DNA of 64,000 nt from Costus lasius (taxonomy: Eukaryota > Streptophyta > Magnoliopsida > Zingiberales > Costaceae), in the NCBI GenBank assembly GCA_027563935.2, contig JANVAS020000239.1, positions 434,001 to 498,000 of the forward strand. The letters are read 5' to 3'. Position 1 is the stretch's first letter, and every line of letters starts with the position of its first letter. The translations under genes and the position numbers were made by a program. Below are positions 13,784-62,971 of this stretch, piece by piece. Below the pieces are notes generated by a model that did not search any database, was not told the origin of the DNA, and was given only the letters and a program-made list of their open reading frames with translations.

Positions 13784-13877
13784 GGTGTTCGATGCTGCAG
13801 GTATCTACAACAATGCAAGAACAGCAAGGTCAGTATCATTGTTAAGAATCAATCAGGACTTAAGAATGATTATTTTT

Positions 13878-13943
13878 CTCACTATTTTATCTGACTGAAA
13901 AATCCATTAAAACAGTCCGAAAGAGTATCACTCTTTTAGTGAG
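13878..13943 (-). ncRNA. Three-way-junction-like leader fold (E1)
   Basis: On the minus strand: CTCACTA closing strand, hairpin AAAGAGT-GAT-ACTCTTT, hairpin GACTG..CAGTC, then TAGTGAG. All three stems pair perfectly. It ends about 95 nt before the gag start. Confidence 0.6.
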
Positions 13944-15311
13944 ATGGGATCCAGATTTCATACTTGGTCTCCGCGTCCCGCTCAGGCGAGATAAGATGCA
14001 CAGAGAGTACAAGCACTAATTTCTGGTAGGCTGTCACAGCCAATCGCCAACCCATTGCGATTCCCCTTCATCTGGGCAATCCAGCAGACTGTGCCAACTG
14101 AGTTGGTACAACACAGTCTCTGATCCCTCAGATGGCTGCCTCTATATAGCTAACATATGCCCCATATGTAGCCTACATGGTCAAGCGGACCTGACCTACT
14201 CCCTGGACCACCACGTGCTATGCTGAGCAACGAGAAGCGATAAATCCCTTCTCTGTAACACGCAGGTGTAATCCCGCACTGTCTGAAGATAGATGGACGT
14301 GCCCACTGAGTGGGTACAACACGGCTCCAACGATAGTCAGAACAGTGAGGTTTCGCGTCAGAAGGCTTTCGAGCTTGATATTTTAGCGTTGGATTTTAAC
14401 GGTCTTTTATCTTCTTACTATCAGGCAAATCCTATGGCTATAGCAGAAGATAAATAACTCATGCAATTCTAATTATTAAACAATAAATAGAAAGCATGCT
14501 GATCTTATGTGGTAAAAGCCCATTAAGCCTAAGTAAGACCTTAACCTAACTTAAGTCTTCACTTGCTTTTCTTCATGGGGCTTTTGCTTCTCATCTGGCC
14601 CAACCCGGGCCCAAGCGCCCACTGCAGCTCAGGTGCGCCCACCAGGGAAAATGCGCCTGTCCCAGAGTCGAACCCTGGACCTCCCACCTGGTCAGGCCAC
14701 TGCTGCATGCGCCTCTGCCAAGTGTGCTCTGTGCTCTTGTCTGATTAAATTACAAATTAATCTATCTAGACAAGATTGACTCGCAGGTCAATTACACTTT
14801 ATAAATTAAATAAAATGTGATGCGCAGATCACAATAAAAATTAATTTACAAAATTTAACCAGGCTCGCAGGCCCCAGCACAGCACACATTAATTAGGCGT
14901 CCCACATAAGATTAAATAAACAAGCATATGCTTACAATCAACATGTGATCCATTCTTGAAAATAAAATTTTTGAAAAACCCATTGGCATCAATTTTATTT
15001 TCCTTATGTGTCCTACTACCTTACAACGGTCCATTAATAGGGATCCACTCATCAGACCTAGTCAGATCCACTACCCTTGCATGCACCAAGTCCTAACTGA
15101 CTTGAGTCGACCCAGTGGTCAACTATGCATGCGCTAGGGCTGAACAATCTACATGAGTTTTGGCAAGCGGGTGTGACCCCGGGCCTAACTCATGCGTGTT
15201 CACTGGTTGTCTCAACCAGACCTCGCTACACGCCTGTGATGCAGTCGACCTATAGCCACCACATGCTTGCGCATAGGTGCCATCTGGTCGACCCATCTAG
15301 GCTGTCAGATG

Positions 15312-21818: not shown

Positions 21819-22726
21819 GTTACCGACATTTAAAGGAAACCCTTAGGGTCGCACAATTTGATGATATGGCTTACTTAAGTCAGATCGTGTGGACTGAATT
21901 GTTTTGGTTCAGTTTAAAGGGATTTAAACTCTGATTATAAGTGAGATCTGGTCTGATCATGTTTGATTGATTAGGGCTTGAGATCGGTAAGCTTCGATCG
22001 AGAGTGTTGATGTTAGATCGGAAAGATCAGGAACATCAAGAGGTGAATGGTCAGATCTAGAACCTTAGGGTTTATTTTGATCTGGACTAAAAGCTTGGGC
22101 TGATTTCGGTTTGGTCATTGAACCATACACTTGTGAACCGGCTCATGGTTGAGCGCTTGGTTCAATTAGAGTGAGATAAGCGTTTGGTTCACTTCATGTG
22201 AACGCTCAAACGCTTGAATGCTTAAATGCATAAACGTTTGCGCATGCTAATTTTGGAAAGTCCAAAAAGGTAACGCATGTTCGGTTGGCTAAGCGTTGGA
22301 TTCACTCTTTGCTCCTCTCTCTCTCGCTTGACGACATCTTGGTGTGGACGAGAAGAAGTCTTGGAGAGAAGCTCGGCAAGTCTAGAGATCAGCTCTCCTT
22401 CCCTTTCCATACGAAAAAGGCCCTTGAAGAACCTTGCTAGCACAAGGATCTCCAAGGAGTAAGCACATCACCTTGTGTGCGTCGACTAGGGAGAAGATCC
22501 CTTTCGGTCTTTGCTTCCAAGATACCATCCATATGATGGCAATGGTATGAATCTTGTCTCATGATTTCAATCTAATGAGTTGATCATATATATCATGCAA
22601 CCGATTCTTGATGCCCTAATTTCCGCCCATGCAAAAGTGTTCTACATGCATGTATTAGGGTTTTGCGCCCCCCTCTTGAAAGGGGTTTTATCCGCTTGCG
22701 CTCCCCCTTGAAGGGGACTCTTCAAT

Positions 22727-22737
22727 TGGTATCAGAG
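22727..22737 (+). other. E2 primer-binding site
   Basis: TGGTATCAGAG, two bases after the LTR; initiator tRNA-Met complement. Confidence 0.92.
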
Positions 22738-23066
22738 GGGGTTATGCATGAATCTTATGATTGCTTTAGTGATCCATGTTTGCGCCATTTTTGTAGATCT
22801 ATCATCACCATGAATACATGCTAGTCATTAGATGTTGGCGCATGATTGATATCACATGTTTGCGCTAATGGATAGATCTAATGTCAACATGCGAAACTAC
22901 ATGTTATTACTTGTATGATTCTTGGCGCATGTTTCTTGATGGCGCTTGTTGAATGTCTTTGTAAAATTCATTACATCTTGCGCGCCTCACTAGATCTAAG
23001 TGGCGCCTACTATAAACCCTTAGATGGGTTGATGGGGTTGAAGTCACCTCTAAGTTATATCCACTA

Positions 23067-23078
23067 GTCTGATCAGAC
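23067..23078. promoter_or_regulatory. 12-nt perfect palindrome (E2 leader)
   Basis: GTCTGATCAGAC, 340 nt after the primer site; identical in all five Copia-A leaders. Confidence 0.55.
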
Positions 23079-24337
23079 CATCTGACAGCCTAGATGGATC
23101 GACCAGATGGCATCTGTGCGCAAGCACGAGGTGGCCATAGGTCGATTGCATCTGAGGCGTGTAGCGAGGTCTGGTTGAGATAACTCAGTGAACACACATG
23201 AGTTAGGCCCGGGGTCACACCCGCTTGCCAGAACTCATGAGGGTTGTTCAGCCCTTGGCGCATGCATGGTTGACCATTAGGTCAACTCGAGTCAGTTAGG
23301 ACTTGGTGCATGCAAGGGCAGAGGATCTGACTAGTTGGATGAGTGGATCCCTATCAATGGACCATTGTAAGGTTGTAGGGCTTATAAGAAAATTAAAATT
23401 GATGCCAATGGGGTTTTCAAAATTTTTATTTTCTTTGTAATGGATCACATGTTGATTGAATGATGCCATGATGCTTGTTTATTTCATCTTATGTGGGTTG
23501 CCCTATTGTGTGCTGTGCTGGGGCCTGCGTGCCTGGAATTAAACTTGTAAATTAATTTGTATTGTGATCTGCGAATCACATTCGTAATTAATTGATTGTA
23601 TAATTGACCTGTGAGTCAAACTTGTCTAGATAGATCAAATTGTATTTGATTAGACAAGAGCACAAAGGCACACATCCTAGAGGGGCATTCAGCTGGTGGC
23701 GCACCTGAGGTGCTCTTGGCGCTAGGGCCCTGGGTTGGACCAGATGAGATGCAAAAATCCCAAGAAGAGCAAGTGAAGACTTAAGTATCTTAAGGTCTTA
23801 CTTAGGCTTTGGGCTTTTACCACATAAGATCCATGCTTTCTTTTTATTGCTTATATAATTAGAACTGCATGAGTTTATCTTCTGCTATCACCGTAGGAAT
23901 TGCATGATAGTGAAGAAGATAAAAGACCGTTAAAATCCAACGCTAACATATCAAGCTCGTAAGCCTTCTGACGCGAAACCTCACTGTTCTGATTATCGTT
24001 GGAGCCGTGTTGTACCCACTCAGTGGGCACGTCCATCTATCTTCAGATGGTGCGGGATTTCACCTGCGTGTTACAGAGAAGGGATTTATCGCTTCTCGTT
24101 GCTCAGCATAGCACGTGGTGGTCCAGGGAGTAGGTCGGGTCAGCTTGACCATGTAGGCTACATATGTGGCGCATATGGTAGCGCATGGAGGCAGCCATCT
24201 GTGGGATCAGAGACTGTGTTGTACCAACTCAGTTGGCACAGTCTGCTGGATTGCCCAGATGAAGGGGAATCGCACGGGTTGGCGATTGGCTGGGATAGCC
24301 TACTAGAAATTAATGCTTGTCATCTCTGTGCATCTTA

Positions 24338-24353
24338 TCTCGCCTGAGCGGGA
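24338..24353 (+). ncRNA. Leader stem-loop TCTCGC-CTGA-GCGGGA
   Basis: 6-bp stem (one G.U) with a CTGA loop. The Copia-B counterpart TCCCAC-CCTC-GTGGGA (minus strand near 48235) keeps the stem with a G-C to A-U exchange. Confidence 0.5.
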
Positions 24354-24385
24354 CGCGGAGACCAAGTATGAAATCTGGATCCCAT

Positions 24386-24450
24386 CTCACTAAAAGAGTG
24401 TTACTCTTTCGGACTGTTTACTGGATTTTTCAGTCAGATAAAATAGTGAG
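24386..24450 (+). ncRNA. Three-way-junction-like leader fold (E2)
   Basis: Closing stem CTCACTA 24386-24392 with TAGTGAG 24444-24450. Arm A is AAAGAGT 24393-24399, loop GTT, ACTCTTT 24403-24409. Arm B is GACTG 24412-24416 with CAGTC 24431-24435. All stems pair fully; gag starts 95 nt downstream. Confidence 0.65.
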
Positions 24451-24545
24451 AAAAAGAATCTTTCTTAAGTCCTGGATTGATTCTGAACATTGATACTGAC
24501 CTTGCTGTTCTTGCATTGTTGTAGATTCCTGCAGCAACGAACACC

Positions 24546-27500
24546 ATGAGCTTCAATGTGCGATCCCTACTGGAAAGGGAGAAGTTTGCTGGGCCGAACT
24601 TCTCTGACTGGTTCGGACACCTTAAGATCGTTCTTAAGGCAGAGAGGAAACTGTATGTCCTTGAGACGGCAGTGCCGCCTCAACCCGCTGCGAACGCCGC
24701 AAGGGCGGTTCGTGAAGCCTATGAAAAGCATGTCAATGATAGCATTGATGTCGCTTGCCTGATGCTAGCGTCTATGATGCCACCGCTGCAGCGTCAGCAT
24801 GAGGATATGTCGGCTATAGAAATTATAGCGAACCTCAAGATGCTGTATGCTGCACAGGCGAGGACAGAACGCTATAATCTGACGAAGCTCTTCTTTCAGA
24901 GCAAACTGGCTGAAGGGAGCCCAGTTGGAGCTCACGTGCTCAAGATGATTGGGCACAAGGAGGCTCTAGAAAAACTGGGGCATACCATTAACCAGGAGCT
25001 AGCTGTAGACATAATTCTGCAGTCTCTCCCGCCCTCTTTCGATGCGTTCATTATTAACTTTAATATGAACAAAATCGATTGTACTCCGGCAGAGCTGCTG
25101 AATATGCTCTTGACTACTGAGGAAACTCTGAAGGGAAAGCCTTCAACCTCTGTCTTACTGGTTCTTTCTAGGAACAAGAAGAAGGGGAAGAAGGGCAAGG
25201 CCCCTGTCAAGAACTACAGTAAGGCTCTGAAACAGAAGGAGAAGCGGTCGAAGGACAACAGGTGTTTCCACTGTGGCCAGCTGGGTCACTGGAAAAAGGA
25301 CTGTAAAGCGCTCCAAGGAGATAAGAGGGGAAGCATCGCTTCTGGCTCAGGTATATACGTGACGGAAGTCATGGTTTCATCTTCTTCTATTTCATGGGTG
25401 TTGGACACTGCATGTGGAGTTCACATTTGTTCAAATGTACAGGAACTCAAGAGAAGAAGGCAGGTGGGACAGCATGAGGTAGACCTACGCGTTGGAAATG
25501 GGGCATGGGTTGCTGCTGTTGCTGTAGGAGACTATTTCATTTCTTTACCATCTGGCATTGTACTGGAATTAAACAATTGTTATTTTGTACCGAGTATCAC
25601 TAAAAATATTATCTCTATTCCTGCTCTTGTCAGGAAAGGATTTGCCTTTGAATGCAATATTTCAAAGTGTGTTTTATCTTGTGATAATATTGTTTATGCA
25701 ACTGGTTCAATTAACAATGGGTTATTCATGTTGGACATGGAATATTCCATACAAAACATTGATAATAAGAAAGCCAAGTATGCTGATGACAGCACCTTGC
25801 TATGGCATAGTCGTTTAGGCCATATTAACAAGAAGCGCATTAAGCGGTTGCATGATCATGGACTGCTGGGATCATTCTCCTATGAGGAGATTGATACATG
25901 CAAAGCTTGTTTGATGGGTAAAATGACGAAGTCACCTTTTCCTAATAAAGGTCAAAGGGCTTCAGGTTTACTTGACCTCATACATAGTGATGTGTGTGGG
26001 CCATTTAGTAAACATGCCAGAGGTGGCTATCAGTACTTCATTACCTTTACTGATGATTTCAGTAGGTATGGGTATGTCTATCTGATGAGACATAAAAGTG
26101 AATCTTTTGACAAGTTCAAAGAGTTCAAGAATGAAGTACAGAATCAGCTAGGCCGAAATATCAAGGCACTTCGCTCAGATCGAGGTGGAGAATACCTAAG
26201 TCGAGAGTTTACTGACTATCTGAAGGAGTGTGGGATTATCTCACAGCTCACTCGACCAGGAACACCGCAATGGAATGGTGTGTCCGAGAGGAGAAATAGA
26301 ACGTTACTTGATATGGTTCGTTCTATGATGAGTCAGGCTACTCTTCCATACTCCTTTTGGGGTTTTGCACTGGAAACAGCTGCAAAGGTACTAAACCGAG
26401 TGCCATCCAAGGCAGTTTCTAAGACGCCATATGAGTTATGGTATGGGAAACAGCCAAGCTTGACATTTATCAGGATCTGGGGTTGCGAGGCTTATGTCAA
26501 AAAGCTCGCCTCTGGGAAACTGGAGAGCAGATCTGAGAAATGTATTTTTGTCGGGTACCCTACGGAAACTAAGGGTTATTATTTCTACGATCCCAAAGAG
26601 AACAAGGTATTTGTTGCTCGGACGGCCATATTTCTTGAGAAGGAATTTCTTCTGCAAGAGGCTAGTGGGAGAGAAATAAAGCTGGATGAGAATCCAGATG
26701 AAGGACAAAGTAGTTAAGCGCAGTTGGATGAGCCAGAGCCAGTGGATCAGGTTATTGAACAACCTGAGGCTCAGATATCACGGGAACCGCGTAGATCGGG
26801 AAGGATCCGTCGACAGCCTGAGCGCTATGACGGAGTCTACATCATTGATAATGATGAACCCCTCACTTATGCGGATGCGGTCAGTGGACCGGAGTCAGCT
26901 AGATGGCTTGATGCTATGCGAGCCGAGATGGACTCCATGTCAGATAACCAAGTCTGGGATTTGGTTGATCCGCCTCCGGGAGTAATCCCTATAGGCTGTA
27001 AATGGATCTTCAAGAAGAAGATTGACATGGATGGTAACGTGGTTACCTATAAAGGCAGGCTAGTTGCGAAAGGATTCAAACAAATCTACGGGATAGATTA
27101 TGATGAAACTTTCTCACCTGTAGCCATGTTTAAGTTTATTCGGATTCTTTTCTCGATAGCTGCATATTACGATTATGAGATCTGGCAGATGGATGTGAAA
27201 ACAGCTTTCTTTAATGGAAATCTGGACGAGGATGTGTATATGACACAACCTGAAGGTTTCACTAATCCATCAGATCGTCATAAAATATGCAAGTTAAAGA
27301 AGTCCATTTATGGACTGAAACAAGCATCTAGAAGCTGGAATATTCATTTTGATGAATCAATGTCTGAGTTTGGTTTCATCAAGAACGAGGATGACCCGTG
27401 TGTATATAAGAGGTTTAGTGGGAGCGTGATTACATTCCTAGTCCTCTACGTCGATGATATCTTAATCATTGGAAATGATATTCCTGAACTGCATGCTGTT

Positions 27501-30192: not shown

Positions 30193-32341
30193 TATGAAAT
30201 GTTGGTTCCGCTGAGATTGTAGTCGCTTGCCTGACCTTGCTCTGAGTTAACCCCAATATCTCATGACCTATCAATCCAAATCGCACGAAACAAATTTTGT
30301 ATGAAACTAGATTCATTCCACTTTAATTTGAATGTGATATCGACCATATCCGAGCTCTATTCATGTTTCAATCTGTATTGTTATCTACCCGTACAAAATC
30401 AGTTTTCTGGAAATCTGGATTTCGACCTTTATGTATTAGAACCATCATATCTCCCTAGATATAACTCGAGCTCATGTCAAATCAGTTTTATTAGAACGTA
30501 GACTCGAAGGGCTTCATTTTGACTACTATATCGCCTATTTTTGGTTAGTTATTGGATCTGAAATATGTGTCGCAATTCTGATTTATGAATCTGTTTTCTG
30601 AAAATCTAAAATCCTGACCTTTCTATGTTCGAACACCCATACCTCCCTGGGTATAACTTAAAATCAGACCAATTCAGTTCTATTGGAAAGTAGATTCAAA
30701 TGGCTTCATTTTGAATATCATATTGTCTATTTTAGGTTACTTACTCGGTCTGAAACATGTGTTGCAAATATAACATATGAATCTGTTTTCTGAAAATCTA
30801 AAAATCCAGACCTTTCTGTGTTCGAACCCCCATATCTCACTGACTACAACTCGAAATCTTGTACAATCAGGTTCATTGGAACCTAGACTCAAAAAGCTTC
30901 ATTTTGATTACCATATTGACTAGTTTTGGTTAGGTATTCAAACTAAATTATATGTTGAAATCTGATAATATGAATCTGCTATGTTTGGTTAATTGCTTGC
31001 CACTAAAGTTGTATTGTGCTTTGAGCTTCAATTTATTTTGGGAGCAACCTGATCTATATGAAACCGGTTTCCCTATGCCTTAACTTGTGGCTTTGAACTC
31101 ATGGTATGAACACTAGCACTTTATGTGGAACTTATGTCCCGGCCCTAAAAATCTCATTATCAATGTAATGCTTATCTCCTATGACAATTGGTATATTCAA
31201 TGACTGAGGTTATATGTTATGCTCAACCTCTTTGCCATAGTGCTCTTCTTATGAAAGTTATATTGTGGGGAGAATTTGAGTGAACCCAAATGAGAGATTT
31301 GTGGATGGATGTGGAGCAAAGTGCCACACCCCTAAAAAGGTTGGGGTCACCTCTTTAATCCCTCCATTCAAAGGAATTGTTTGGAGCAAAGTGCCACACC
31401 CCTAAAAAGGTGGGGGCCACCTCTTGAGTCCCACTTCTCATATGGTAGTTGGAAGCAAAGTGCTACATGGAGCAAAGTGCCACACCCCTAAAAAGGTGGG
31501 GGCCACCTCTTGAATTCATGGGAGCCACCGCTTGAATCCCACTATCTATTTGTATGAAGAGCCCTAAGATGCTCTAGCTAGCTTTGGTTTGCTCTCTCTC
31601 CTAACGAGGATGGGTTCAACTTCTAGACGTGGAAGGAATTATGAATTTTGATTGTCTCCCCCACATTTATGATCTATGACTATTCATGACATGAATGCAC
31701 CCCTGTGCTCAATAATGATCAATGACTAATTGTGACTCAAATGTCTCATCCATGGGGAATATGTTACTATCTTGCTTTCCTTACCCAAATTATGTGCTCA
31801 AGGGAATTATGTTGTTCTTCATTATTGTGATATTGTGTTGACTATTTCGTTGATATGTTTATCCTCTTTAGTTCGTTTCCCTTGGTCTTTGGGTTTACTT
31901 GTTGGGCAATTTATGCTTATTCTTGCTTGCACTAACCCTTATTGCAGATTAGCTTGGCTATGCATTGTGGGCAGAAGTATGAAATTTGGAAGCTCATTTT
32001 GGAATTTTGGCTAAAACATATAATTTTGTAATCTTGGAAACATTGTATGTTCCATAAAAGACTTGTATTAAGGAGTGGTATTGTGACTTGTTGTGATGAA
32101 AATATTTCTAGTTTTGAAATTTATTACAATGGTCTATGTTGATAGTATGTTTAGCTCTCGGATTTTGGATTGTATGACTTTACTTTGCTTTTGGGTAAAA
32201 GACTTTGAAAGAATGGATATTGTTCTGTTGCAACTTAGATGATGACATTTTAACATATGTTTTGTTGTTCAAGGCATTATATCTTGATTTTGATTGTCGA
32301 TCCTCGTGAAAATTATATATATGATTTTTCTATATAGGATT
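30193..32341 (+). repeat. G1 3' LTR, third piece, with tandem repeats
   Basis: Host LTR between E2 and E3. About 30295-30990 holds four diverged units of roughly 192 bp (landmark gcttcatttt at 30511, 30703, 30896). Three copies of a 44-bp unit (ggagcaaagtgccacacccc..) start at 31313, 31383 and 31469, each ending in the stem AGGTGG/CCACCT or a variant. No coding domain; the 80-codon frame near 31772 is not supported. Confidence 0.75.
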
Positions 32342-36690: not shown

Positions 36691-37515
36691 GGGCCCGGGT
36701 TGGGCCAGAGGAAATGCTAAAGACCCATGAAGAGCTCAGGTGAAGACTTAAGTTATTTAAGGTCTTACTTAGGGTTAATGGGCTTTTACCACATAAGATC
36801 ATCATGCTTTTAATTTACTGTTTCAGTAATTTAGTAACTGCATGATTTATTCTTCTGCTATCACCATAGGATTTGAATGATAGTATGAAGATAAAAGGAC
36901 CGTTAAAATCCAACATTAAATATCAAGCACGATAGCCTTCTGACGCGAAACCTCACTGTTCTGACTATCGTTGAGGCTGTGTTGTACCCACTCAGTGGGC
37001 ACGCCCATCTATCTTCAGACGGTGTGTGATTACACCTGCGTGTTACAGAGAAGGGATTTATCGCTTCTCGTTGCTCAGCATAGCACGTGGTGGTCCAGGG
37101 AGTAGGTCAGGTCAGCTTGACCATGTAGGCTACATATTGAGCATATGGTAGCTATATGGAGGCAGCCATCTGTGGGATCAGAGACTGTGTTGTACCAACT
37201 CAGTTGGCATAGTTTGCTGGATTGCCCAGATGAAGGGGAATCGCACGGGTTGGCGATTGGCAGGGAATGCCTACCAGAGATTAGTGCTTGTACTCTCTGT
37301 GCATCTTATCTCGCCTGAGCGGGACGCGGAGACCAAGTATGAAATCTGGATCCCATCTCACTAAAAGAGTTTTACTCTTTCGGGCTGTTTTGCTGGATTT
37401 TTCAGCCAGATAAAATAGTGAGAAAAGAATCATTCTTAAGTCCTGAATTGATTCTAACATTGATACTGACCTTGCTGTTCTTGCATTGTTGTAGATTACT
37501 GCAGCAACGAACACC
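36691..37515 (+). other. E3 leader, second part
   Basis: Resumes the leader: odd palindromes CCCACTCAGTGGG (near 36988) and CCAACTCAGTTGG (near 37196), the TCTCGC-CTGA-GCGGGA stem (near 37309) and the junction fold at 37357-37422. Confidence 0.75.
37357..37422 (+). ncRNA. Three-way-junction-like leader fold (E3)
   Basis: CTCACTA/TAGTGAG; AAAGAGT-TTT-ACTCTTT; arm B is GGCTG (37383-37387) with CAGCC (37403-37407), a G-C pair where E1 and E2 have A-U. Confidence 0.65.
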
Positions 37516-43137: not shown

Positions 43138-44002
43138 GTGGCGCCCCTTGATTGGCCGAACTCTAGGAGGCGCCTAAGGTTTGCGAGCTAGCAAGGGCAG
43201 AGGAGAGTGTTGGCCGAACCCTAGGAGGAGCCTAGGGTTTGCGTGCTAACACAGGTGGAGCATGAAACCTTGGCAGCACACCGAGGGTTGAAGCAGGACC
43301 CTGAAGCACTTAGAGCAAGGAGCTGACGGCTTAGAGCATGAGCGGGTCACTTGGAGCTCTAGAGATGCTAGGTGTCGAGTCTAGGTCTAGGGGCTTGTTT
43401 CCTTTGTCTGGGCTATAATCATATCATCATTTACTGCTTTTGTTGTCATGCTCTGATTGTTTTATTTTATGTTATCACTATAGGGTGCATGCCTGTAATG
43501 TTAGACATAAGATAAAACAAATGTGGTATGACACCACCCAAACCCTCACAAAATTATATCAAGTCCCGTTCCCACTTTCTGACGCGTAGCCCTCGTCAAA
43601 CTATCGATCGATGGTGATGTGCACTATTTCCCACCCCGTAGGACACACCCATCTATCTTTAGGAGGCGTGTGGTGACAAAAATTTCCCAATCTGGTTAAA
43701 ACTCTAGATGTGCCTTTCGCAAGGAAATTGTTGGCCCTGGGCATAACGGTCAGGTCGGACTTGACTGGAACTTCCATATGTGGTTTATCCACATGATGAA
43801 AGTTTCTAGAAGCAGCCTCAAGAAGTTAGAACTTCGTGCTGTATCCAGCCCTCGTTGGACACGAAGTGTCTAAACTGTCTTAAGAAGGGGAATTGCCTAG
43901 TTGCAATTGGCTAGCGTGCCTACCTTGAGATACATGCGTCACCTCGTGCAGTACATCCCGTCCTCGCAGGACGCGGGGCCGTGTGAGGAACAAGGATCCC
44001 AT

Positions 44003-44070
44003 CTCACTTTGGAAATTTTGTGGTTTCCCGGATTGACATGAGAGGGTTGTCAGTCAGATAAAATAGTGAG
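44003..44070 (+). ncRNA. Three-way-junction-like fold (Copia-B, plus copy)
   Basis: CTCACT with AGTGAG closes two arms: GGAAA..TTTCC (44011-44015, 44024-44028) and ATTGAC..GTCAGT (one G.U). The arms differ in sequence from Copia-A but keep the layout. Confidence 0.5.
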
Positions 44071-44150
44071 AAACAATCATTTATTTCAAGTCCAGATTAA
44101 ATGATTGAAATGTGGTACTAATCTTCATGTCTTTGTTATAGATCATCTCT

Positions 44151-48053: not shown

Positions 48054-48716
48054 TGTTCTACAACAATCAAGAAACAGCATATTAGTACGACTTTAAATCA
48101 TTTAAACTGGACTTATTTTAAATGATTATATCTCCCACTATTTTAATCGAATTGACAACCCACAAAGTCAATCAGGAAGTTTAAGACTTCCTAGTGAGAT
48201 GGGATCCTTGTTCCGCATGAGGCTTCGCGTCCCACGAGGGTGGGATGAGATGCACAAAGTAACCCATGCTTCCTAAGGTGGGCACGCCTGCCGATTGCTC
48301 CAAGCAATTCCCCTTATTGAGACAGTCTAAGCATTTCATGTCCAGCGAGGGCTAGATATAGCATGAAACCCTAACCTCTCAACGATGCCTCTAGAGCTCC
48401 ACCATATGCCAAACATATGTGAAAATCTAGTCAAGTCCATTCCTAACCGTTATGCCCAGGGCCAATGAGTTTCCTTGCGAAGGCGCGCCCGATTAAAACG
48501 AACTGGGGAAACCATTGCCACCACGCAGTTTCTAAAGATAAGTGGGTGTGTCCCACGAGGGTGGGAAATAGTTCACAACACCACTGATCGATAGCTTAGT
48601 GAGGGCTACGCTACGCGTTTGAAGGCTACTAGACTTGATATTTATTTATGAGGGTTTTTGAGGTCTCATCAGTTTTATCTTATGTCTAACATTACAGGCA
48701 TGCAATCCTATAGTGA
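48054..48716 (-). other. Copia-B leader (minus copy)
   Basis: Non-coding leader matching 43470-44150 and 695-962. It contains TCCCAC-CCTC-GTGGGA stems near 48235 and 48565 and the junction fold 48134-48198. Truncated at 48716 by the next LTR. Confidence 0.75.
48134..48198 (-). ncRNA. Three-way-junction-like fold (Copia-B, minus copy)
   Basis: On the minus strand: CTCACT(A) with TAGTGGG (one G.U), arm A AGGAAGT-CTTAA-ACTTCCT, arm B ATTGAC..GTCAAT. The arms pair perfectly though their sequence differs from Copia-A. Confidence 0.6.
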
Positions 48717-50561
48717 TGACACCAAAATATGTAGTATATTTTGTATCATTTTAGATACATTTTCATGCTAAATTGAAGATTTTTTGCTTGTTTTTATGTG
48801 GAATTCATCAAATATTGCAAAGTCTATTCCTATTTTGGTTTTTCATGATTTTCAGGCAAAAAAGGCACTATTTTGGGCGTTTTTAAGCAAAATTAAAGAC
48901 ATGGAAGAATTACCATGATCAAGAGAAGGTCACACAAGAATTTTCACGTAAATCGAGGCAAAGAACCAAAATACGGCAGTGCCGTAAGCCATTTTACGGT
49001 ACCGTATTTCTGCGGCTACCGTATCATCAAGAACACGGCCGTATTTTGGTGATTTTCCAAACAAAAAGTTTTTTTGATTTTACGGCACTGCCGTAAGAAT
49101 TTACACGGCCGTATTTTCTAGCGCTTCAGACCAAAGAGTTCACCAGATTTTACGGCACTACCGTAAGGGATTTCACGGGCCGTATTTTCCACTCGTTTAC
49201 GAACAGAGAGTTTAGCCAATTTTACGGCACTAATCGTAAACCATTTATGATGCCGTAATTCCCAAACGACATCAGATCAGAAGCTTCAACCGATTTTACG
49301 GCACCGCCGTAACATATTACACCGCCGTAATTTCCAGTCAAAACGCGAGTTTTTCGGCCCAAAAATTGTGAAGGCCATAACATTTGATCCAGAGCTCCAA
49401 ATTTAGATCCGAAAGTTGCTGCAGCTTCATCTTTAAGAGGAGAAGGCGTATGAAGTGGAAAAAAAGGAACTTTTATCCAGTATCGAGGAAGAAATTGCCA
49501 GAGAGGCAGCTAGGGTTTGGCCCCCTGCCGAGAGGCGTAGAGGGCACCTTAGGCCATGATTCTCACTCAGAGGCTTTGCCTAGAGGAGAGAAAGATGCCA
49601 CAGAAGTTTCAAAGCATTTGTTGTCTGATCGGAGGAGGAATCAACAAAACAGCGGTGACAGCGCTGTTCATCACGAAATTACGGGTGTAATTTACATTAC
49701 ACCCGTGTTGTAACGTTGTTTTTTTTTCTCCTTCTCTGATTTCTAATTGTTCTAAACTATGATTCATTGTATTTTTTCCTCCTTGCAAGCTTAACACTCT
49801 TTTGGGACATGGGGTGTAATCCCCTTGATTCTTAATGATTAGATAACTCTTCTATTTTCGTCATGATAATTTTTGCTATGATAATTTTACTTTTGTGATG
49901 GATTGTGCTTAGACTCTCTATAAGTCGATGTTACTAATTATGTTTTTAGAGTTTTCGCAATGAGACTGAAAGGTGATTTGCTTGAGAACTTGGAACCCTA
50001 GAATTGCATGTTAGGATCCCTTCCTTAGGTTAGATCTAATTTGATCTGTTCTAGAAAATTAATTGCCATGATTATAAAATGAATCTATAGATCGAGTCTA
50101 TTTGTCAAACGTGGAGATCTTGTGCGAAAGCAAGGATCAGAACATTGGAGATCCATGAGTAAAACTAGTGTAGGGACTCGGATACACGAAAGTGATCCTT
50201 GAGACTCCACTAGAGATTATCAACCTAGAATTTGAATGCACGAAAGTGATCTTTGAATTCTCTGATTGATGATTTACTTATCTTTAGCCTGGGATAAATC
50301 TTGCGCGAAAGTGAGGATTTATCTCTGCGTGGTTATCTGCTCGAAAGTGAGATAATCCTTTTATGAAGTAAATTAGGTCTTTATTTTAGCAAGATTTGAT
50401 TGACGAACCTTTTATGTATCTAATCATTGAAGTTAAGGTGGATGAAACCCAAGTCCCAATTCATCTCTCTGATAATCCTTTTGTGGTAATTAACAATAAG
50501 GTCTCTGTGGATCGATATTTTTATTACTTCGATAATTCCGTGCACTTGCAGAATCCTATCA
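48717..50561 (+). repeat. Tat/Athila-like gypsy LTR
   Basis: Starts TGACACCAAAATATG and ends ..AATCCTATCA, followed at once by agtttTTGGCGCCGTTGTCGGGGA, the tRNA-Asp-type primer site typical of plant Tat/Athila gypsy elements. 1845 bp. It contains palindromic tandem repeats (48969-49330). The rest of the element after the primer region is missing. A right-hand target duplication cannot be tested. Confidence 0.7.
48969..49330 (+). repeat. Tandem palindromic 'TTTTACGGC' repeats
   Basis: About five diverged units spaced 70-74 bp (anchors 49076, 49146, 49218, 49292, with an earlier unit at 48969). Each carries TTACGGC-ACT-GCCGTAA or a variant, followed by acggccgtattt. The stem is perfect in the units at 49076 and 49292. 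Confidence 0.8.
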
Positions 50562-53731: not shown

Positions 53732-54748
53732 ATGGTGCGAACTAGAGGAAATGCTAGCGGCGAGGATGAGCAGAGTCCGAATTTCTCAAGGGCTATTGAG
53801 GCTCTGACAGGCATGGTACAGCAACAGGGTGCCATGATAGAGAGGCAAGCTCAGATGCTGCAGCAGCAACAGACTCAGCATCAAGAAGCGCAACAGCAGC
53901 TCTTGCAGCAATTGACTCAGGAGAGATCCCAGACTACTACTCGAGGGGTGGGGACTGACTCTCAGGAGGACGCTCACAGGCGCTATGCCTCACTTGTGAG
54001 TGAATTCCAGAAACTGGGTCCTAGCTCTTTTTATGGGGGCTCAGAATCAAGTACGGCAGAGAACTGGCAGTTGGTTTTGGACAAGATTTTCCAAGTCATG
54101 CGTTGCTCAGATGAGGACAAGCTGTGTCTGGCCACCTATATGATGCGTGGTGACGCAGATGAGTGGTGGAAGGGCGTGGTGAGGCTTGCTGAAGAAAGAC
54201 ATGAAACAGTAGATTGGCCCTTTTTCTTGTCTCAATTTAATGAGAAGTACTTCCCCGATAGCTTGGTGGAGGACCGAGAGGTGGAATTTATTCATCTGGA
54301 GCAGGGTGATATGACTGTGGACCAGTATGAGTTACGGTTCACTAAGTTGGGAAAGTATGCCCCTCACCTGATAAACACTGAAAAGAGGAGGGCTACCAAG
54401 TTTCTCAGAGGTCTCAGATGGGACATTCGGGAGCAGGTTGGTGCTCAGCACTTGGAGACTTATGTTGAGACTGTTGGGAGAGCACGCACCATTGAGAGGT
54501 ACATATCTGAGAGGAGTTCTAGTGTGGCCGTGATGGTGGTTCCTGCAGCTGAGGCGGCGGCTCCTCAGTATGGTAATGGCGGCAAGGGTAAGAAGTACCC
54601 TAGACATAAGGACTACAAGAAGAGCAGGTATAAGCCTTACTCTTACAAGGCACCGCAGCAGTCCAGGGATGCACCGCAGCAGTTCAGGGATACCAGGGAT
54701 GTAAAGAGCAGTATCACAGAGGACCGGAATTGTAATTATTGTGGGCTC
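53732..54748 (+). pseudogene. G2 gypsy gag, truncated
   Basis: Begins MVRTRGNASGEDEQ 113 bp after the primer site. A Gln-rich coiled-coil-like stretch occupies about residues 30-70. The retrotransposon gag (capsid) domain spans about 85-240 (LGPSSFYGGSE..AENW, LATYMMRGDADEWWKG, FNEKYFPDS, FIHLEQGDMTVDQYE..FTKLGKYAPHL, KFLRGLRWDIREQV). A basic tail follows, then the start of a zinc knuckle CNYCG. The frame crosses at about 54749 into reversed Copia-A sequence and stops at 54766. The protein would lack a complete knuckle and all of pol. The gag part itself has no stop. Confidence 0.88.
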
Positions 54749-54749
54749 A

Positions 54750-57666
54750 AGATATCATCGACGTAGAGGACTAGGAAAGTAATCACGCTCCCACTAAACC
54801 TCTTATATACACACGGGTCATCTTCGTTCTTGATGAAACCAAATTCAGTGACTGATTCATCAAAACGAATATTCCAGCTTCTTGATGCTTGTTTAAGTCC
54901 ATAAATAGACTTCTTTAATTTGCATATTTTATGACGATCTGATGGATTAGTGAAACCCTCAGGTTGTGTCATATACACATCCTCATCCAGATTTCCATTA
55001 AGGAAAGCCATTTTCACATCCATTTGCCAGATCTCATAATCGAAATATGCTGCTATCGCGAAAAGAATCCGAATAGACTTAAACATGGCTACAGGTGAGA
55101 AAGTTTCATCATAATCTATCCCGTAGATTTGTTTGAAACCTTTCGCAACTAGCCTGCCTTTATAGGTAACCACGTTACCATCCATGTCAATCTTCTTCTT
55201 GAAGATCCATTTGCAGCCTATAGGGATTACTCCCGGAGGCGGATCAACCAAATCCCAGACTTGGTTATCTGACATGGAGTCCATCTCGGCGCGCATAGCT
55301 TCAAGCCATCTAGCTGACTCCGGTCCACTGACCGCATCCGCATAAGTGAGGGGTTCATCATTATCAATGATGTAGACTCCGTCATAGCGCTCAGGCTGTC
55401 GACGAATCCTTCCCGATCTTCGCGGTTCCCGTGATATCTGAGCCTCAGGTTGTTCAATAACCTGTTCTACCGGCTCAGGCTCATCCAAATTTGCTTGACT
55501 ACTTTGTCCTTCCTCTGGATTCTCATCCAGCTTTATCTCTCTCCCAATGGCCTCTTGCAGAAGAAACTCCTTCTCAAGAAATATGGCCGTCCGAGCAACA
55601 AACACCTTGTTCTCTTTGGGATCGTAGAAATAATAACCCTTAGTTTCCTTAGGGTAACCGACAAAGATACATTTCTCAGATTTGCTCTCTAGTTTCCCAG
55701 AGGCGAGCTTTTTGACATAAGCCTCGCAGCCCCAGATCCTGATAAATGTCAAGCTCGGCTGTTTCCCATACCATAACTCATATGGCGTCTTTCAAACTGC
55801 CTTGGATGGCACTCGGTTTAGTACCTTTGCAGCTGTCTCCAGTGCAAATCCCCAAAAGGAATAAGGTAGAGTAGCCTGACTCATCATAGAACGAACCATA
55901 TCAAGTAGGGTTCGGTTCCTCCTCTCGGACACACCATTCCATTGCGGTGTTCCTGGCGGAGTGAGCTGTGAGATAATCCCACACTCCTTCAGATAGTCAG
56001 TAAACGCATGACTCAAGTATTCTCCACCTCGATCAGAACGAAGTGCCTTGATATTTCAGCCTAGCTGATTTTGTACTTCATTCTTGAACTCTTTGAACTT
56101 GTCAAAAGAGTCACTTTTATGTCTCATCAGATAGACATAACCATACCTACTGAAATCATCAGTAAAGGTAATGAAGTACTGATAGCCACCTCTGGCATGT
56201 TTACTAAATGGCCCACACACATCACTGTGTATAAGGTCAAGTAAACCTGAAGCCCTTTGACCTTTGTTAGGAAAAGGTGACTTCGTCATTTTACCCATTA
56301 AACAAGCCTTGCATGTATCAATCTCCTCATAGGAGAATGATCCCAGCAGTCCATTATCATGCAACCGCTTAATGCGTTTCTCGTTAATATGGCCTAAACG
56401 ACTATGCCATAGCAAGGTGCTGTCATCAGCATACTTGGCTTTCTTAATATCAATATTTTGTATAGAACATTCCATGTCTAACATGAATAACCCATTGTTA
56501 ATTGAACCAGTAGCATAAACAATATTATCAAGAGAAAGAACACACTTTGAAATATTGCATTTAAAGGAAAATCCCTTCCTGACAAGAGCAGGAATGGAGA
56601 TAATATTCTTAGTAATGCTGGGAACAAAGTAACAATTGTTTAGGTCTAATACAAGCCCAGATGGCAAAGAGATGAAATAGTCTCCTACAGCAACAGCAGC
56701 AACCCGTGCCCCGTTTCCAACTCGTAGGTCCACCTCATGCTGTCCCACCTGTCTTCTTCTCTTGAGTTCCTATACATTTGAACAAATGTGAACTCCACAT
56801 GCAGTGTCCAACACCCATGATATAGAAGAAGATGATATCATGACTTCAGTCACAAATATACCTGAGCCAGAAGCGATGCTTCCCTTCTTGTCTCCTTGGA
56901 GCGCTTTACAGTCCTTTTTCCAGTGACCTAGCTGGCCACAGTGGAAACACCTGTATTCCTTTGACCGCTTAACTTTTTGCTTCAGAGCCTTGCTGTAACT
57001 CTTGACAGGGGCCTTGCCCTTCTTCCCCTTCTTCTTGTTCCTAGAAGGAACCATTAAGACAGAGGTCGAAGGCTTTCCCTTCAGAGTCTCCTCAGTAGTC
57101 AAGAGCATATTCAGCAGCTCTGCCGGAGTACAGTCGATTTTGTTCATATTAAAGTTAATGATGAACGCATCGAAAGAGGGCGGGAGAGACTGCAGAATAA
57201 TGTCTACAGCAAGCTCCTGATTGATGGTATGCCCCAGTTTCTCTAGAGCCTCCTTGTGCCCAATCATCTTGAGCACGTGAGCTCCCACTGGGCACCCTTC
57301 AGCCAGTTTGCTCTGAAAGAACAGCTTAGTCAAATTATAGCGCTCAGTCCTCGCCTGTGCAGCATACAGCATCTTGAGGTTTGCTATAATTTGTATAGCA
57401 GACATATCCTCATGCTGACGCTGCAGCGGTGGCGTCATAGACGCTAGCATCAGGCAAGCGACATCAATGCTATCATTGACGTGCTTTTCATAAGCTTCAC
57501 GAACCGCCCTTGCGGCGTTCACAGCGGGTTGAGGCGGCGCAGCCGTCTCGAGGACATATAGTTTCCTCTCTGCCATAAGAACGATCTTAAGGTGTCCGAA
57601 CAAGTCTGAGAAGTTTGGCCCAGCAAACTTCTCCCTTTCCAGTAGGGATCGCACATTGAAGCTCAT
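54750..57666 (-). pseudogene. E4 copia polyprotein, gag to mid-RT
   Basis: Starts MSFNVRSLLEREKF at 57666. Zinc knuckle, WVLDTACG, HHCC, SDVCGPF and NGVSERRNRT are readable. Stops: TAG 56770-56772 after the protease motif, TGA 56056-56058 (CGA in other copies) in the integrase core, TGA 55792-55794 in the integrase C-terminal part. No frameshift. The last RT residues are YVDDIL, after which the reading enters G2. Two of three stops are C-to-T changes relative to E2, as expected for methylated, silenced DNA. Confidence 0.92.
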
Positions 57667-59447
57667 GGTGTTCGTTGCTGCAGGAATCTACAACAATGCA
57701 AGAACAGCAAGGTCAGTATCAATGTAGAGAATCAATCCAGGACTTAAGAAAGATTCTTTTCTCACTATTTTATCTGGCTGAAAAATCCAGAAAAAATAGC
57801 CCAAAAGAGTAGAACTCTTTTAGTGAGATGGGATCCAGATTTCATACTTGGTCTCCGCGTCCCGCTCAGGCGAGATAAGATGCACAGAGAGTACAAGCAC
57901 TAATCTCTGGTAGGCTGTCCCAGCCAATCGCCAACCCGTGCGATTCCCCTTCATCTGGGCAATCCAGCTGACTGTGCCAACTGAGTTGGTACAACACAGT
58001 CTCTGACCCCACAGATGGCTGCCTCCATGCGCTACCATATGCGCCACATATGTAGCCTACATGGTCAAGCTGACCCGACCTACTCCCTGGACCACCACGT
58101 GCTATGCTGAGCAACGAGAAGTGATAAATCCCTTCTCTGTAACACGCAGGTGTAATCCAGCACCATCTGAAGATAGATGGACGTGCCCACTGAGTGGGTA
58201 CAACACGGCTCCAACGATAATCAGAACAGTGAGGTTTCGCGTCAGAAGGCTTATGAGCTTGATATTTTAGCGTTGGATTTTAACGGTCTTTTATCTTCTT
58301 CACTATCATGCAATTCCTATGGTGATAGCAGAAGATAAATAAATCATGCTGTTCTACTTATATAAACAATAAAAGAAAGCATGGATCTTATGTGGTAAAA
58401 GCCCATAGCCTAAGTAAGACCTTAATTAATTTAAGTCTTCACTTGCTTTTCTTCATGGGACTTTTGCTGCTCATTTGGCCCAATCCAGGGCCCAAGCGCC
58501 ATCTGCAGCTCAGGTGCGCCCACCAGGAATATGCGCCTGTCCCAGAGTCGAACCCTGGACCTCCCACCTGGTCAAGCCACTGCTGCATGCGCCTCTGCCA
58601 AGTGTGCTTTGTGCTCTTGTCTGATTAACTTACAAATTAATCTATCTAGACAAGATTGACACGCAGGTCAATTACACTTTATAAATTTAAATACAATGTG
58701 ATACGCAGATCACAATAATTAATTTACAACTTTAATACAGGCACGCAGGCCCCAGCACAGCACACATTTAACATGGGCAGCCCACATAAGAATAAATAAA
58801 CATACATATGGCATCAATCAACATGCGATCCAACCATGAAAATAAAAGTTTTGAAAAACCCCATTGGCATCAATTTTATTTTCCTTATATGCCCTTACTA
58901 CCTTACAACGGTCCATTACTAGGGATCCACTCATCATTTCTAGTTAGATCCACTACCCTTACATGCACCAAGTCCTAACTGATTTGAGTCGACCAAATGG
59001 TCAACTATGCATGCGCTAGGGCTGAACGACCACAATGAGGTCTGGCAAGCGGGTGTGACCCCGGGCATAACTCATGTGCGTTCAAGGTTGTCTCAATCAG
59101 ACATCGCTACACGCCTGTCTGCAGTCGACCTATAGCCACCTCATGCTTGCGCACAGGTGCTATGTGGTCAACCCATCTAGGCTGTCAGATGGTCTGATCA
59201 GACTATTTGGATCTAACCTAGATGATGACTTCAATCCTAATAACCCATCTAAGGGTTTACAGTAAGGCCTTAGATCTAATGAGAGGCGCGCATGTGAAGT
59301 AGTTTTTGAAGAAAACAACTATGCGCCAATCAACAACAAACAAATACAAGTATTTTCGCATATGAAAACTTATCATGTATTTTACGCATGTTATGAAGAT
59401 CTAAGCATACATGGATCACAAAGCAATCATATGAACATATAAAACCG
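57667..59447 (-). other. E4 leader
   Basis: Copia-A leader with junction fold 57761-57827, odd palindromes near 57980 and 58190, tRNA-like block near 58545-58605 (B box GGTTCGACTCT, A box TGGCAGAGGCG on the minus strand) and the 12-nt palindrome at 59192-59203. Confidence 0.75.
57761..57827 (-). ncRNA. Three-way-junction-like fold (E4)
   Basis: Closing stem CTCACTA/TAGTGAG and arm A AAAGAGT-TCT-ACTCTTT intact. Arm B GGCTA/CAGCC has one mismatch, plausible in this decayed copy. Confidence 0.55.
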
Positions 59448-61169: not shown

Positions 61170-62971
61170 GATGCGGTTCTTGCTTGTTCATATGTTTGCT
61201 TTCTTTGTGATCCTATGTATAGATCTATATGTTACATGCGAGAGTTGTGATAAGAGAATGTTACTGCTTGTGAGAGATGTTTTTCTCCTAGGCGCATGTA
61301 TTTCTTCTAGGCGCATATTGTATGTTTTCTCAAAAACTGATATTACATGCGCGACTCATTATAGATCTAAGGCCCTGCTTTAAACCCTTAGACGGGTTAT
61401 TAGGGTTGAAGTCATCCCCTAGGTTAGATCCAGACAGTCTGATCAGACCATCTGACAGCCTTGATGGGTTGACCAGATAGCACCTGTGCATAAGCACCTG
61501 GTGGCTATAGGTCGACTGCAGACAGGCGTGTAGCGATGTCTGGTTGAGACAACTAATGAACGCACATGAGTTAGGCCCGGGGTCACACCCGCTTGCCAGA
61601 CCTCACAGTGGTCGTTCAGCCCTGGCGTATGCATAGTTGACCACTGGGTCGACTCAAGTCAGTTAGGACTTGGTGCATGCAAGGGCAGTGGATCTGACTA
61701 GGTTGGATGAGTGGATCCCTAGTAATGGACCGTTGTAAGGTTGTAGGGCAAATAAGGAAATTAAAATTGATGCCTATGGGGTTTTCGAAATTTAATTTCA
61801 TGATTGGATCACATGTTGATTGATGCCTATGTATGTTTATTTATTCTTATGTGGGCTGCCCATGTTAATTGTGTGCTGTGCTGGGGCCTGCGTGCCTGGA
61901 AATTAAAGTTGTAAATTAATTATTGTGATCTGCGTATCACATTGTATTTAATTTATAAAGTGTAATTGACCTGCGTGTCAATCTTGTCTAGATAGATTAA
62001 TTTGTAAGTTAATCAGACAAGAGCATAGAGCACACTTGGCAGAGGCGCATGCAGCAGTGGCTTGACCAGGTGGGAGGTCTAGGGTTTGACCCTAGGACAG
62101 GCGCATTTTCCCTGGTGGGCGCACCTAAGCTGCAGTTGGCGCTTGGGCCCTGGTTTGGGCCAGATGAGCAGCAAAAGACCCATGAAGAAAAGCAAGTGAA
62201 GACTTAAGTTGATTAAGGTCTTACTTAGGCTATGGGCTTTTACCACATAAGATCCATGCTTTCTTTTATTGTGTAAATAAGTAGAACAGCATGATTTATT
62301 TATCTTCTGCTATCACCATAGGAATTGCATGATAGTGAAGAAGATAAAAGACCGTTAAAATCCAACGCTAAAATATCAAGCTCGTATGCCTTCTGACGCG
62401 AAACCTCACTGTTCTGATTATCGTTGGAGCCGTGTTGTACCCACTCAGTGGGCACGTCCATCTATCTTCAGACGGTGCGGGATTACACCTGCGTGTTACA
62501 GAGAAGGGATTTATCGCTTCTCGTTGCTCAGCATAGCACGTGGTGGTCCAGGGAGTAGGTCGGGTCAGCTTGACCATGTAGGCTACATATGTGGCGCATA
62601 TGGTAGCGCATGGAGGCAGCCATCTGTGGGGTCAGAGATTGTGTTGTACCAACTCAGTTGGCACAGTCTGCTGGATTGCCCAGATGAAGGGGAATCGCAC
62701 GGGTTGGCGATTGGCAGTCATTGCCTACCAGAAATTAGTGCTTGTACTCTCTGTGCATCTTATCTCGCCTGAGCGGGACGCGGAGACCAAGTATGAAATC
62801 TGGATCCCATCTCGCTAAAAGAGTTCTACTCTTTCGGGCTGTTTTGCTGGATTTTTCAGCCAGATAAAATAGTGAGAAAAAGGATCATTCTTAAGTCCTG
62901 AATTGATTCTTTACATTGATACTGACCTTGCTGTTCTTGCATTGTTGTAGATACCTGCAGCAACGAACACC
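61170..62971 (+). other. E5 leader
   Basis: 12-nt palindrome 61437-61448, tRNA-like block 62036-62095 with a weakened B box, odd palindromes near 62440 and 62650, and junction fold 62811-62876. Short frames here are not supported. Confidence 0.75.
62811..62876 (+). ncRNA. Three-way-junction-like fold (E5)
   Basis: CTCGCTA with TAGTGAG (A-U replaced by G.U), arm A AAAGAGT-TCT-ACTCTTT, arm B GGCTG/CAGCC. Confidence 0.6.

Follow-up and report, generated by a model that had tools for sequence, protein, structure and literature searches.

Our present results describe a compact RNA structure in the leader of an abundant Copia retrotransposon of Costus lasius. Within the window, by which we mean the whole stretch of 64,000 nucleotides that was analysed, the copy at 24.4k (E2) contains a fold of two hairpins, 67 nt long and closed by an 8-bp stem, at 24385-24451 of the forward strand, with the gag start 94 nt downstream. 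Comparison of copies strongly supports it as a conserved structure of the sense-strand RNA. A predicted 3' splice site separates it from gag, and we propose that the fold may be a signal for packaging or dimerisation that only the unspliced, genomic RNA carries. We favour this reading on sequence grounds, giving it somewhat less than an even chance.

The window contains nested Copia elements. The order of their domains (gag, zinc knuckle, integrase, reverse transcriptase; Pfam) is that of Copia and, together with the primer site, places them in this superfamily. Their LTRs measure about 1.7 kb, and the primer site, TGGTATCAGAG, is presumably of the initiator-methionine tRNA type. The two LTRs of the 24.4k copy share 99.8% identity over 1743 nt, and this copy is therefore young. 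Protein relatives, mostly named as plant proteins, show 45-61% identity among the 120 matches listed out of 507. The window has other features too: at 30424-30996, about 230 nt 3' of the 3' LTR of the 24.4k element, a unit of about 190 nt is repeated three times in tandem, the copies being 70-78% alike; irregular tandem repeats around TTACGGC...GCCGTAAAA occupy about 49030-49340 of the reverse strand, upstream of copy B2; and an open reading frame of 344 amino acids at 53732-54766 looks, by eye, like the gag protein of another element, probably of Ty3 type. The parts of the 24.4k element referred to below are the following.

22727-22737, forward strand: primer-binding-site motif TGGTATCAGAG, start of a leader that runs 1819 nt to gag and contains 50 ATGs
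23894-24384, forward strand: remaining conserved leader domain 5' of the junction, with three similar hairpins (alignment of A and B copies and consensus fold)
24385-24451, forward strand: junction, copy E2, with closing stem P1 at 24385-24392/24444-24451 (sequence, folding and covariation over 55 distinct copies)
24393-24399/24403-24409, forward strand: arm P2 of E2
24412-24416/24431-24435, forward strand: arm P3 of E2
24436-24443, forward strand: A-rich junction segment of E2
24455-24484, forward strand: hairpin P4, directly 3' of the junction (from two alignments)
24494-24524, forward strand: predicted 3' splice site of E2, with branch point TACTGAC at 24494-24500, pyrimidine-rich tract and TTGTAG ending at 24524 (rank 5)
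24546-26717, forward strand: gag with the beginning of pol (Pfam: Retrotran_gag_2, CCHC zinc knuckle, Pol_BBD and integrase)

In P1, UCUCACUA pairs with UAGUGAGA. Inside it stand P2, of 7 bp, and P3, of 5 bp in A copies and 7-8 bp in B copies. The segment after P3 ends in AAAA in 54 of 55 aligned copies and is followed by the 3' strand of P1 and then by P4. An unpaired GGRU occurs in the P3 loop of 49 of the 55, and the loop of P4 carries AAGTCC in A and B copies and AAGGCC in most C and D copies. Pairing between these two loops (a kissing pair) was considered and fails in C and D on inspection by eye. The A-type copies could form an alternative P3 (GCUGGA/UUCAGC type) at 24412-24443 that competes with P3, possibly as a two-state arm.

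An earlier note, made from the sequence alone, had described an inverted repeat closing two arms; both were found where it placed them in all seven window copies, six of which lie outside the 24.4k element. Numbered by position, the A copies are E1 at 13.9k (reverse), E2 at 24.4k (forward), E3 at 37.4k (forward), E4 at 57.8k (reverse) and E5 at 62.8k (forward).

13830-13946, reverse strand: copy E1, junction and P4; predicted 3' splice site AG at 13805
37354-37469, forward strand: copy E3, junction and P4; predicted 3' splice site AG at 37494; no longer has the ATG of gag
44000-44121, forward strand: copy B1, junction and P4; predicted 3' splice site AG at 44141 (rank 14)
48082-48201, reverse strand: copy B2, junction and P4; predicted 3' splice site AG at 48058 (rank 7)
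57713-57830, reverse strand: copy E4, junction and P4; one mismatch at the end of P3; predicted 3' splice site AG at 57688
62808-62925, forward strand: copy E5, junction and P4; a G.U pair in P1; predicted 3' splice site AG at 62950

The variants that the same note had pointed out among the A copies are real: the G.U pair in the closing stem of E5, the single mismatch of the old copy E4, which falls in arm B (P3), and the change of arm B from GACTG/CAGTC to GGCTG/CAGCC. The arms it quoted for both Copia-B copies hold for the one at 48.1k but not for that at 44.0k, whose arms are GGAAAUU/GGUUUCC and GAUUGACA/UGUCAGUC and whose closing stem has 7 bp. It had also counted two copia families. There are indeed several carriers, but two is too few: the fold occurs in no fewer than four types of sequence (A, B1, B2 and C), as well as in a family with broken gag (D).

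The fold is very frequent in the 1.28-Gb genome. The pattern CATCTCACTN{35,65}AAAATAGTGAGA gave 30,542 matches (15277+15265) and its reversed control none; a second pattern, which excludes the main A type, gave 6,131 (2994+3137; reversed control 0+1), and the two overlap in part (L056, for example, is in both). For comparison, 87 junctions were collected, all from this one genome, of which 68 are distinct (46 non-A and 22 A). The alignment A3 contains 55 of these 68, namely 43 of the 46 non-A and 12 of the 22 A copies; L105, L109, L125 and ten A copies were excluded before any pair was counted. L105 and L125 have deletions 3' of the junction and are without the splice site. The earlier note had not recognised the fold, and Rfam gave no match to it: the whole window gave no match at the gathering score, and at E<=1 the stretch 22700-24600 gave a single match elsewhere in the leader (mir-2944, E 0.76). 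In viral contigs, a search with Gag detected no relatives, and the stem pattern matched 55 contigs, none with a tblastn match to the gag-integrase or reverse transcriptase pieces.

The decisive evidence for the fold, judged from sequence, is comparative and not the stability of single copies. Unconstrained folding of the seven window copies yields z-scores of -2.5 to -4.2. When P1 is forced and only the interior is shuffled, the z-scores are only -0.4 to -1.3, with 45-137 of 400 shuffles equally stable; 2-14 of 400 are equally stable and also contain two hairpins of at least 5 bp. The minimum-energy fold favours the alternative arm B in four of the five A copies (E2-E5), and in the same four when P1 is forced; where formed, this alternative is also compatible with the A-type change GACTG/CAGTC to GGCTG/CAGCC. 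Because P1-forced shuffles fold comparably and the alternative P3 can absorb the A-type change, neither lone sequences nor that change alone prove much. A loose pattern run on the window matched six of the seven copies against none expected, missing E5, in which one base is changed.

In the 55 distinct copies, standard pairs that differ on both sides occur at P2 pairs 1, 2 and 4-7, P3 pairs 1-4 and 7, and P4 pairs 1-3, 5 and 11. P4 pair 1 pairs in 26 of 55 copies and P4 pair 11 in 34 of 43, and both were left out of the count, with P4 pairs 2, 3 and 5 retained; P2 pair 7 and P3 pair 7 each pair in 40 of 55. P1 does not covary and hardly varies, since the search patterns fixed it. Changes per column amount to 3.43 in P2/P3, only slightly below the 3.89 of unpaired positions, and to 0.38 in P1. 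As a null model, the observed substitutions were placed randomly along a FastTree tree, with columns either equal or weighted by rate (600 runs each). Standard pairing in P2/P3 reaches 91.0%, against null means of 56-58% and maxima of 77-79%, and 109 cells are changed on both sides, against about 20 on average in the null runs and at most 81 and 68; neither value was attained in any of the 600 runs of either version. Changes on both sides occur in 11 of the 14 P2/P3 pairs (null mean 6.2-6.3), a number equalled in 1 and 3 of 600 runs. Within P1-P3, 100 G.U cells stand against 25 A.C cells, as expected if the sense RNA folds.

The MAFFT register between families was off by one base in places and was set by hand for each family; the tool count was therefore also run on the untouched alignment. 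There, 89.6% of cells are paired, against 34-50% when partners are slid by 1-3 columns, and 86 cells are changed on both sides, against a shuffled mean of 30 (0/500). Two of the five measures are not unusual in this alignment: the number of both-side-changed pairs (12 against 10.1; 92/500) and the number of pair types (31 against 32.6; 441/500). The earlier note had called for R-scape; in a G-test modelled on R-scape, with the null taken from the tree, one of 27 pairs passes (P2 pair 5), P3 pair 4 has an E value of 0.09 and the rest fail, in our opinion because most change lies on few deep branches. The covariance model it had likewise suggested does find the seven window copies (E 1.2e-15 to 6e-28), but six of them are training rows and the seventh shares the junction sequence of a training row. 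One extra match in the window has an E value of 3.7, and the best match among the 55 viral contigs that hit the stem pattern by chance has 0.47.

Between P4 and gag, all seven window copies carry TACTGAC or TACTAAT, a pyrimidine-rich stretch, and TTGTAG or TTATAG. The branch point, pyrimidine-rich tract and AG of a spliceosomal 3' end are thus present, as judged from the sequence and a plant consensus that was not fitted to these sequences; scored by this consensus, the predicted acceptors of the seven copies rank 1-5, 7 and 14 among the 8426 AGs on both window strands. A strict form of the motif was found in 74 of the 87 collected copies. Four of the 13 misses lack the site (two D copies, L105 and L125); the others differ from it at single bases or are not covered by the strict form. 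In the copies printed, the acceptor adjoins the ATG in C, precedes it by 4 nt in B2 and mostly by 21 nt in A; the motif is present in other families too. Counted from the junction in up to 12 printed copies per family, the branch-point motif starts 40-45 nt on, with a single exception, and the end of the AG lies at 70-75 nt.

The leader between primer site and gag is rich in upstream ATGs in other copies as well: 16 other leaders, of 1452-1803 nt, have 38-56 each, and for the other 15 of the 31 rows listed, which include two from the window, the stretch begins only at a word resembling the primer site within the leader. A leader intron that contains the fold and ends before gag is likely from these sequences; it would explain both the acceptor-like site and the dozens of upstream ATGs. 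Scoring for a splice donor in the leader and LTR gave several GT candidates, none convincing across families. CAA|GTATGA at 24366 occurs in 4 of 4 leaders, yet is absent from the B2 leaders scored; TCG|GTAAGC at 21987 occurs in 10 of 10 LTRs and is likewise absent from the scored B2 leaders, the B2 LTR scoring having covered about 110 nt. As another acceptor, TATCACYATAG near 23894 scored poorly (ranks 642-1920 for the three sites listed out of five). A genome pattern for spliced retrocopies, estimated to detect about one third of possible exon ends, gave two matches, both nested LTR insertions. At two loci, L086:1505 and L087:1525, the end of an inverted LTR directly adjoins the predicted acceptor, at its last base or the base that follows; the pattern by which they were found favours junctions of this kind.

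Some further features of the leader were observed. Detectable homology between leaders begins at TATCACYATAGG (23894, 43463 and 48729), and 5' of there B1 and B2 have no blastn similarity to each other. A second primer-site-like word, TGGGATCAGAG, lies at 24202 inside the 24.4k leader and also inside that of the 37.2k element, with similar words in other A copies. The three similar hairpins 5' of the junction (24010-24362 in A, 43700-44000 in B1, and in L056/L116) have loops that by eye are CCCUCG-like in B, C and D copies and ACUCAGU or CUGAG in A copies; such repeated hairpins could be protein sites.

For the gag-broken family D, the sequence CTCACTAAGGAAATCTGGTGATTTCNCGATCGAC occurs in 39 copies (17+22) in the genome, and 12 copies (L116, L117 and L136-L145) were aligned. 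In all 12, branch point and tract are missing through a common gap of about 30 nt, which leaves a GTAG-like word whose identity with the old acceptor AG depends on gap placement, and a 10-nt deletion, also common to all, shifts the gag frame; the junction and P4 are present. A pattern joining the 3' end of P1 to the D gag deletion gave 64 matches (25+39) on many contigs, including C1-C9. From its sequences, D seems to have multiplied after the loss of gag expression and splice signals. Both D search patterns contain part of the fold, so that copies without it would be missed and its retention is partly a matter of ascertainment. No selection on the fold was seen within the 12 D copies: the unforced junction half and P4 diverge by 0.052, against 0.061 in the adjoining dead gag. 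Among D windows of the same length, 5 of 76 diverge as little as the fold (mean 0.14), but these windows reach into poorly aligned sequence. As a non-autonomous family, D resembles barley BARE2.

What we infer about splicing, Gag binding and a role in packaging can be put as follows. The fold would act in cis in the RNA of a plant Copia retrotransposon that is present in very many copies; P1-P3 and P4 would form in the sense RNA, close to where the predicted leader intron ends. Splicing to the acceptor before gag would remove the fold, P4 and dozens of upstream ATGs and yield the gag-pol mRNA. Since the strong 3' splice site separates fold from gag, a spliced gag mRNA would be without the fold. 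The unspliced RNA would retain fold and P4 and be recognised by Gag, possibly through contact of its zinc knuckle with the GGRU loop, which is conserved and unpaired; dimerisation or packaging of this RNA as the genome would follow. A more specific version, possible but doubtful, is that leader splicing separates two RNA pools, a gag-pol mRNA with short leader and an unspliced genome marked by an intron-only packaging junction, and that D is packaged in trans. If this is true, the gag-broken relatives that lack splice signals and keep the junction amount to a built-in mapping experiment.

Several other functions have to be weighed. That the fold has none, being chance hairpins inherited by descent in a young repeat family, would agree with the many comparable shuffles of P1-forced single copies, the recent relationship of most copies and the weak G-test; it is contradicted by the tree-aware null, in which pairing and compensated cells were each at 0/600 in both versions, and by the viral contigs that match the stem alone and do not fit the covariance model, and we regard it as very improbable. 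It is rather unlikely that the fold and P4 instead control splicing, setting the ratio of spliced to unspliced RNA at the adjoining 3' splice site, for example by masking upstream AGs or slowing the use of the branch point. The near-constant spacing of junction, branch point and AG would suit such control; the lack of a convincing donor in leader and LTR argues against it, as does D, in which junction and P4 are present although branch point and tract are gone, allowing for the partly ascertained retention.

The earlier note had offered a packaging signal or an internal translation element, and of these packaging fits best. An IRES or ribosome shunt that takes ribosomes past the upstream ATGs to gag on unspliced RNA would account for a structured leader with 38-56 such ATGs and for the position just 5' of gag, and leaders of this kind in plant pararetroviruses bring together a shunt, a splice donor and the signal for packaging (PMC5902531). 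The strong 3' splice site between the element and the ATG weakens it, and so does the presence of the element in gag-broken D (found through the fold itself); a translational role therefore appears distinctly unlikely. The same evidence for a cis role in unspliced RNA that speaks for packaging would also serve an element for export or reverse transcription, by analogy with RTE and MTE of mouse LTR elements, which are structured export elements (PMC12786077); we consider this unlikely, with no particular observation against it. Packaging or dimerisation is the reading we retain.

The fold is of interest for the question of how plant LTR retrotransposons distinguish their genomic RNA from mRNA: it is compact, it covaries, its copies number tens of thousands, and it has a predicted acceptor beside it and natural relatives with broken gag. 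Among the titles and abstract openings searched, with most subscription journals outside their scope, none described an intron in the leader of a plant Copia element or a structure for its packaging. The available portion of a Sirevirus paper likewise describes neither a leader intron nor a gag-proximal leader structure (PMC2829016), and a 2025 review, in the part available, has plant LTR elements generally without introns, with exceptions that include Ogre and EVADE (PMC12786077). As far as the accessible text goes, splicing in EVADE and in sunflower elements yields different mRNAs of plant LTR elements (PMC12786077, PMC7730604). EVADE splicing drops the protease domain to give a short gag RNA, unlike the leader splicing proposed here (PMC12786077), and the sunflower introns are not placed in the leader in that text (PMC7730604).

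A parallel outside plants is retroviral Psi, which like the present fold is structured leader RNA just 5' of gag. Psi is present only in unspliced RNA, as the fold would be if the predicted leader intron is spliced. Psi lies 3' of the splice donor, and retroviral gag is translated from unspliced RNA. Here, unlike in retroviruses, the predicted acceptor precedes gag, and the spliced RNA would encode Gag. Ty1, a member of the Copia superfamily, offers a second comparison. It is also an LTR retrotransposon with structured 5' RNA bound by Gag, but what the available part of the source describes is a pseudoknot and palindromes near the 5' end of the RNA and a proposed packaging region at +230-580 (PMC8396678). 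The leader of cauliflower mosaic virus (CaMV) is, as here, long, structured and provided with many upstream ORFs; it includes a splice donor as well as a packaging signal to which the coat protein binds. It differs in forming one large stem-loop with a ribosome shunt, and the accessible text mentions no three-way junction beside an acceptor before the first gene (PMC5902531). Among plant Copia elements, barley BARE1/BARE2 keeps separate RNA pools for translation and packaging, and part of its transcripts are spliced (PMC3735527). The available portion of that source describes no leader RNA structure for BARE, and the BARE intron, 104 nt at the gag/protease border, is unlike the leader intron predicted here. 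The BARE2 subfamily, whose gag start has been lost, relies on packaging in trans, in which it is comparable to the D family described here (PMC3735527).
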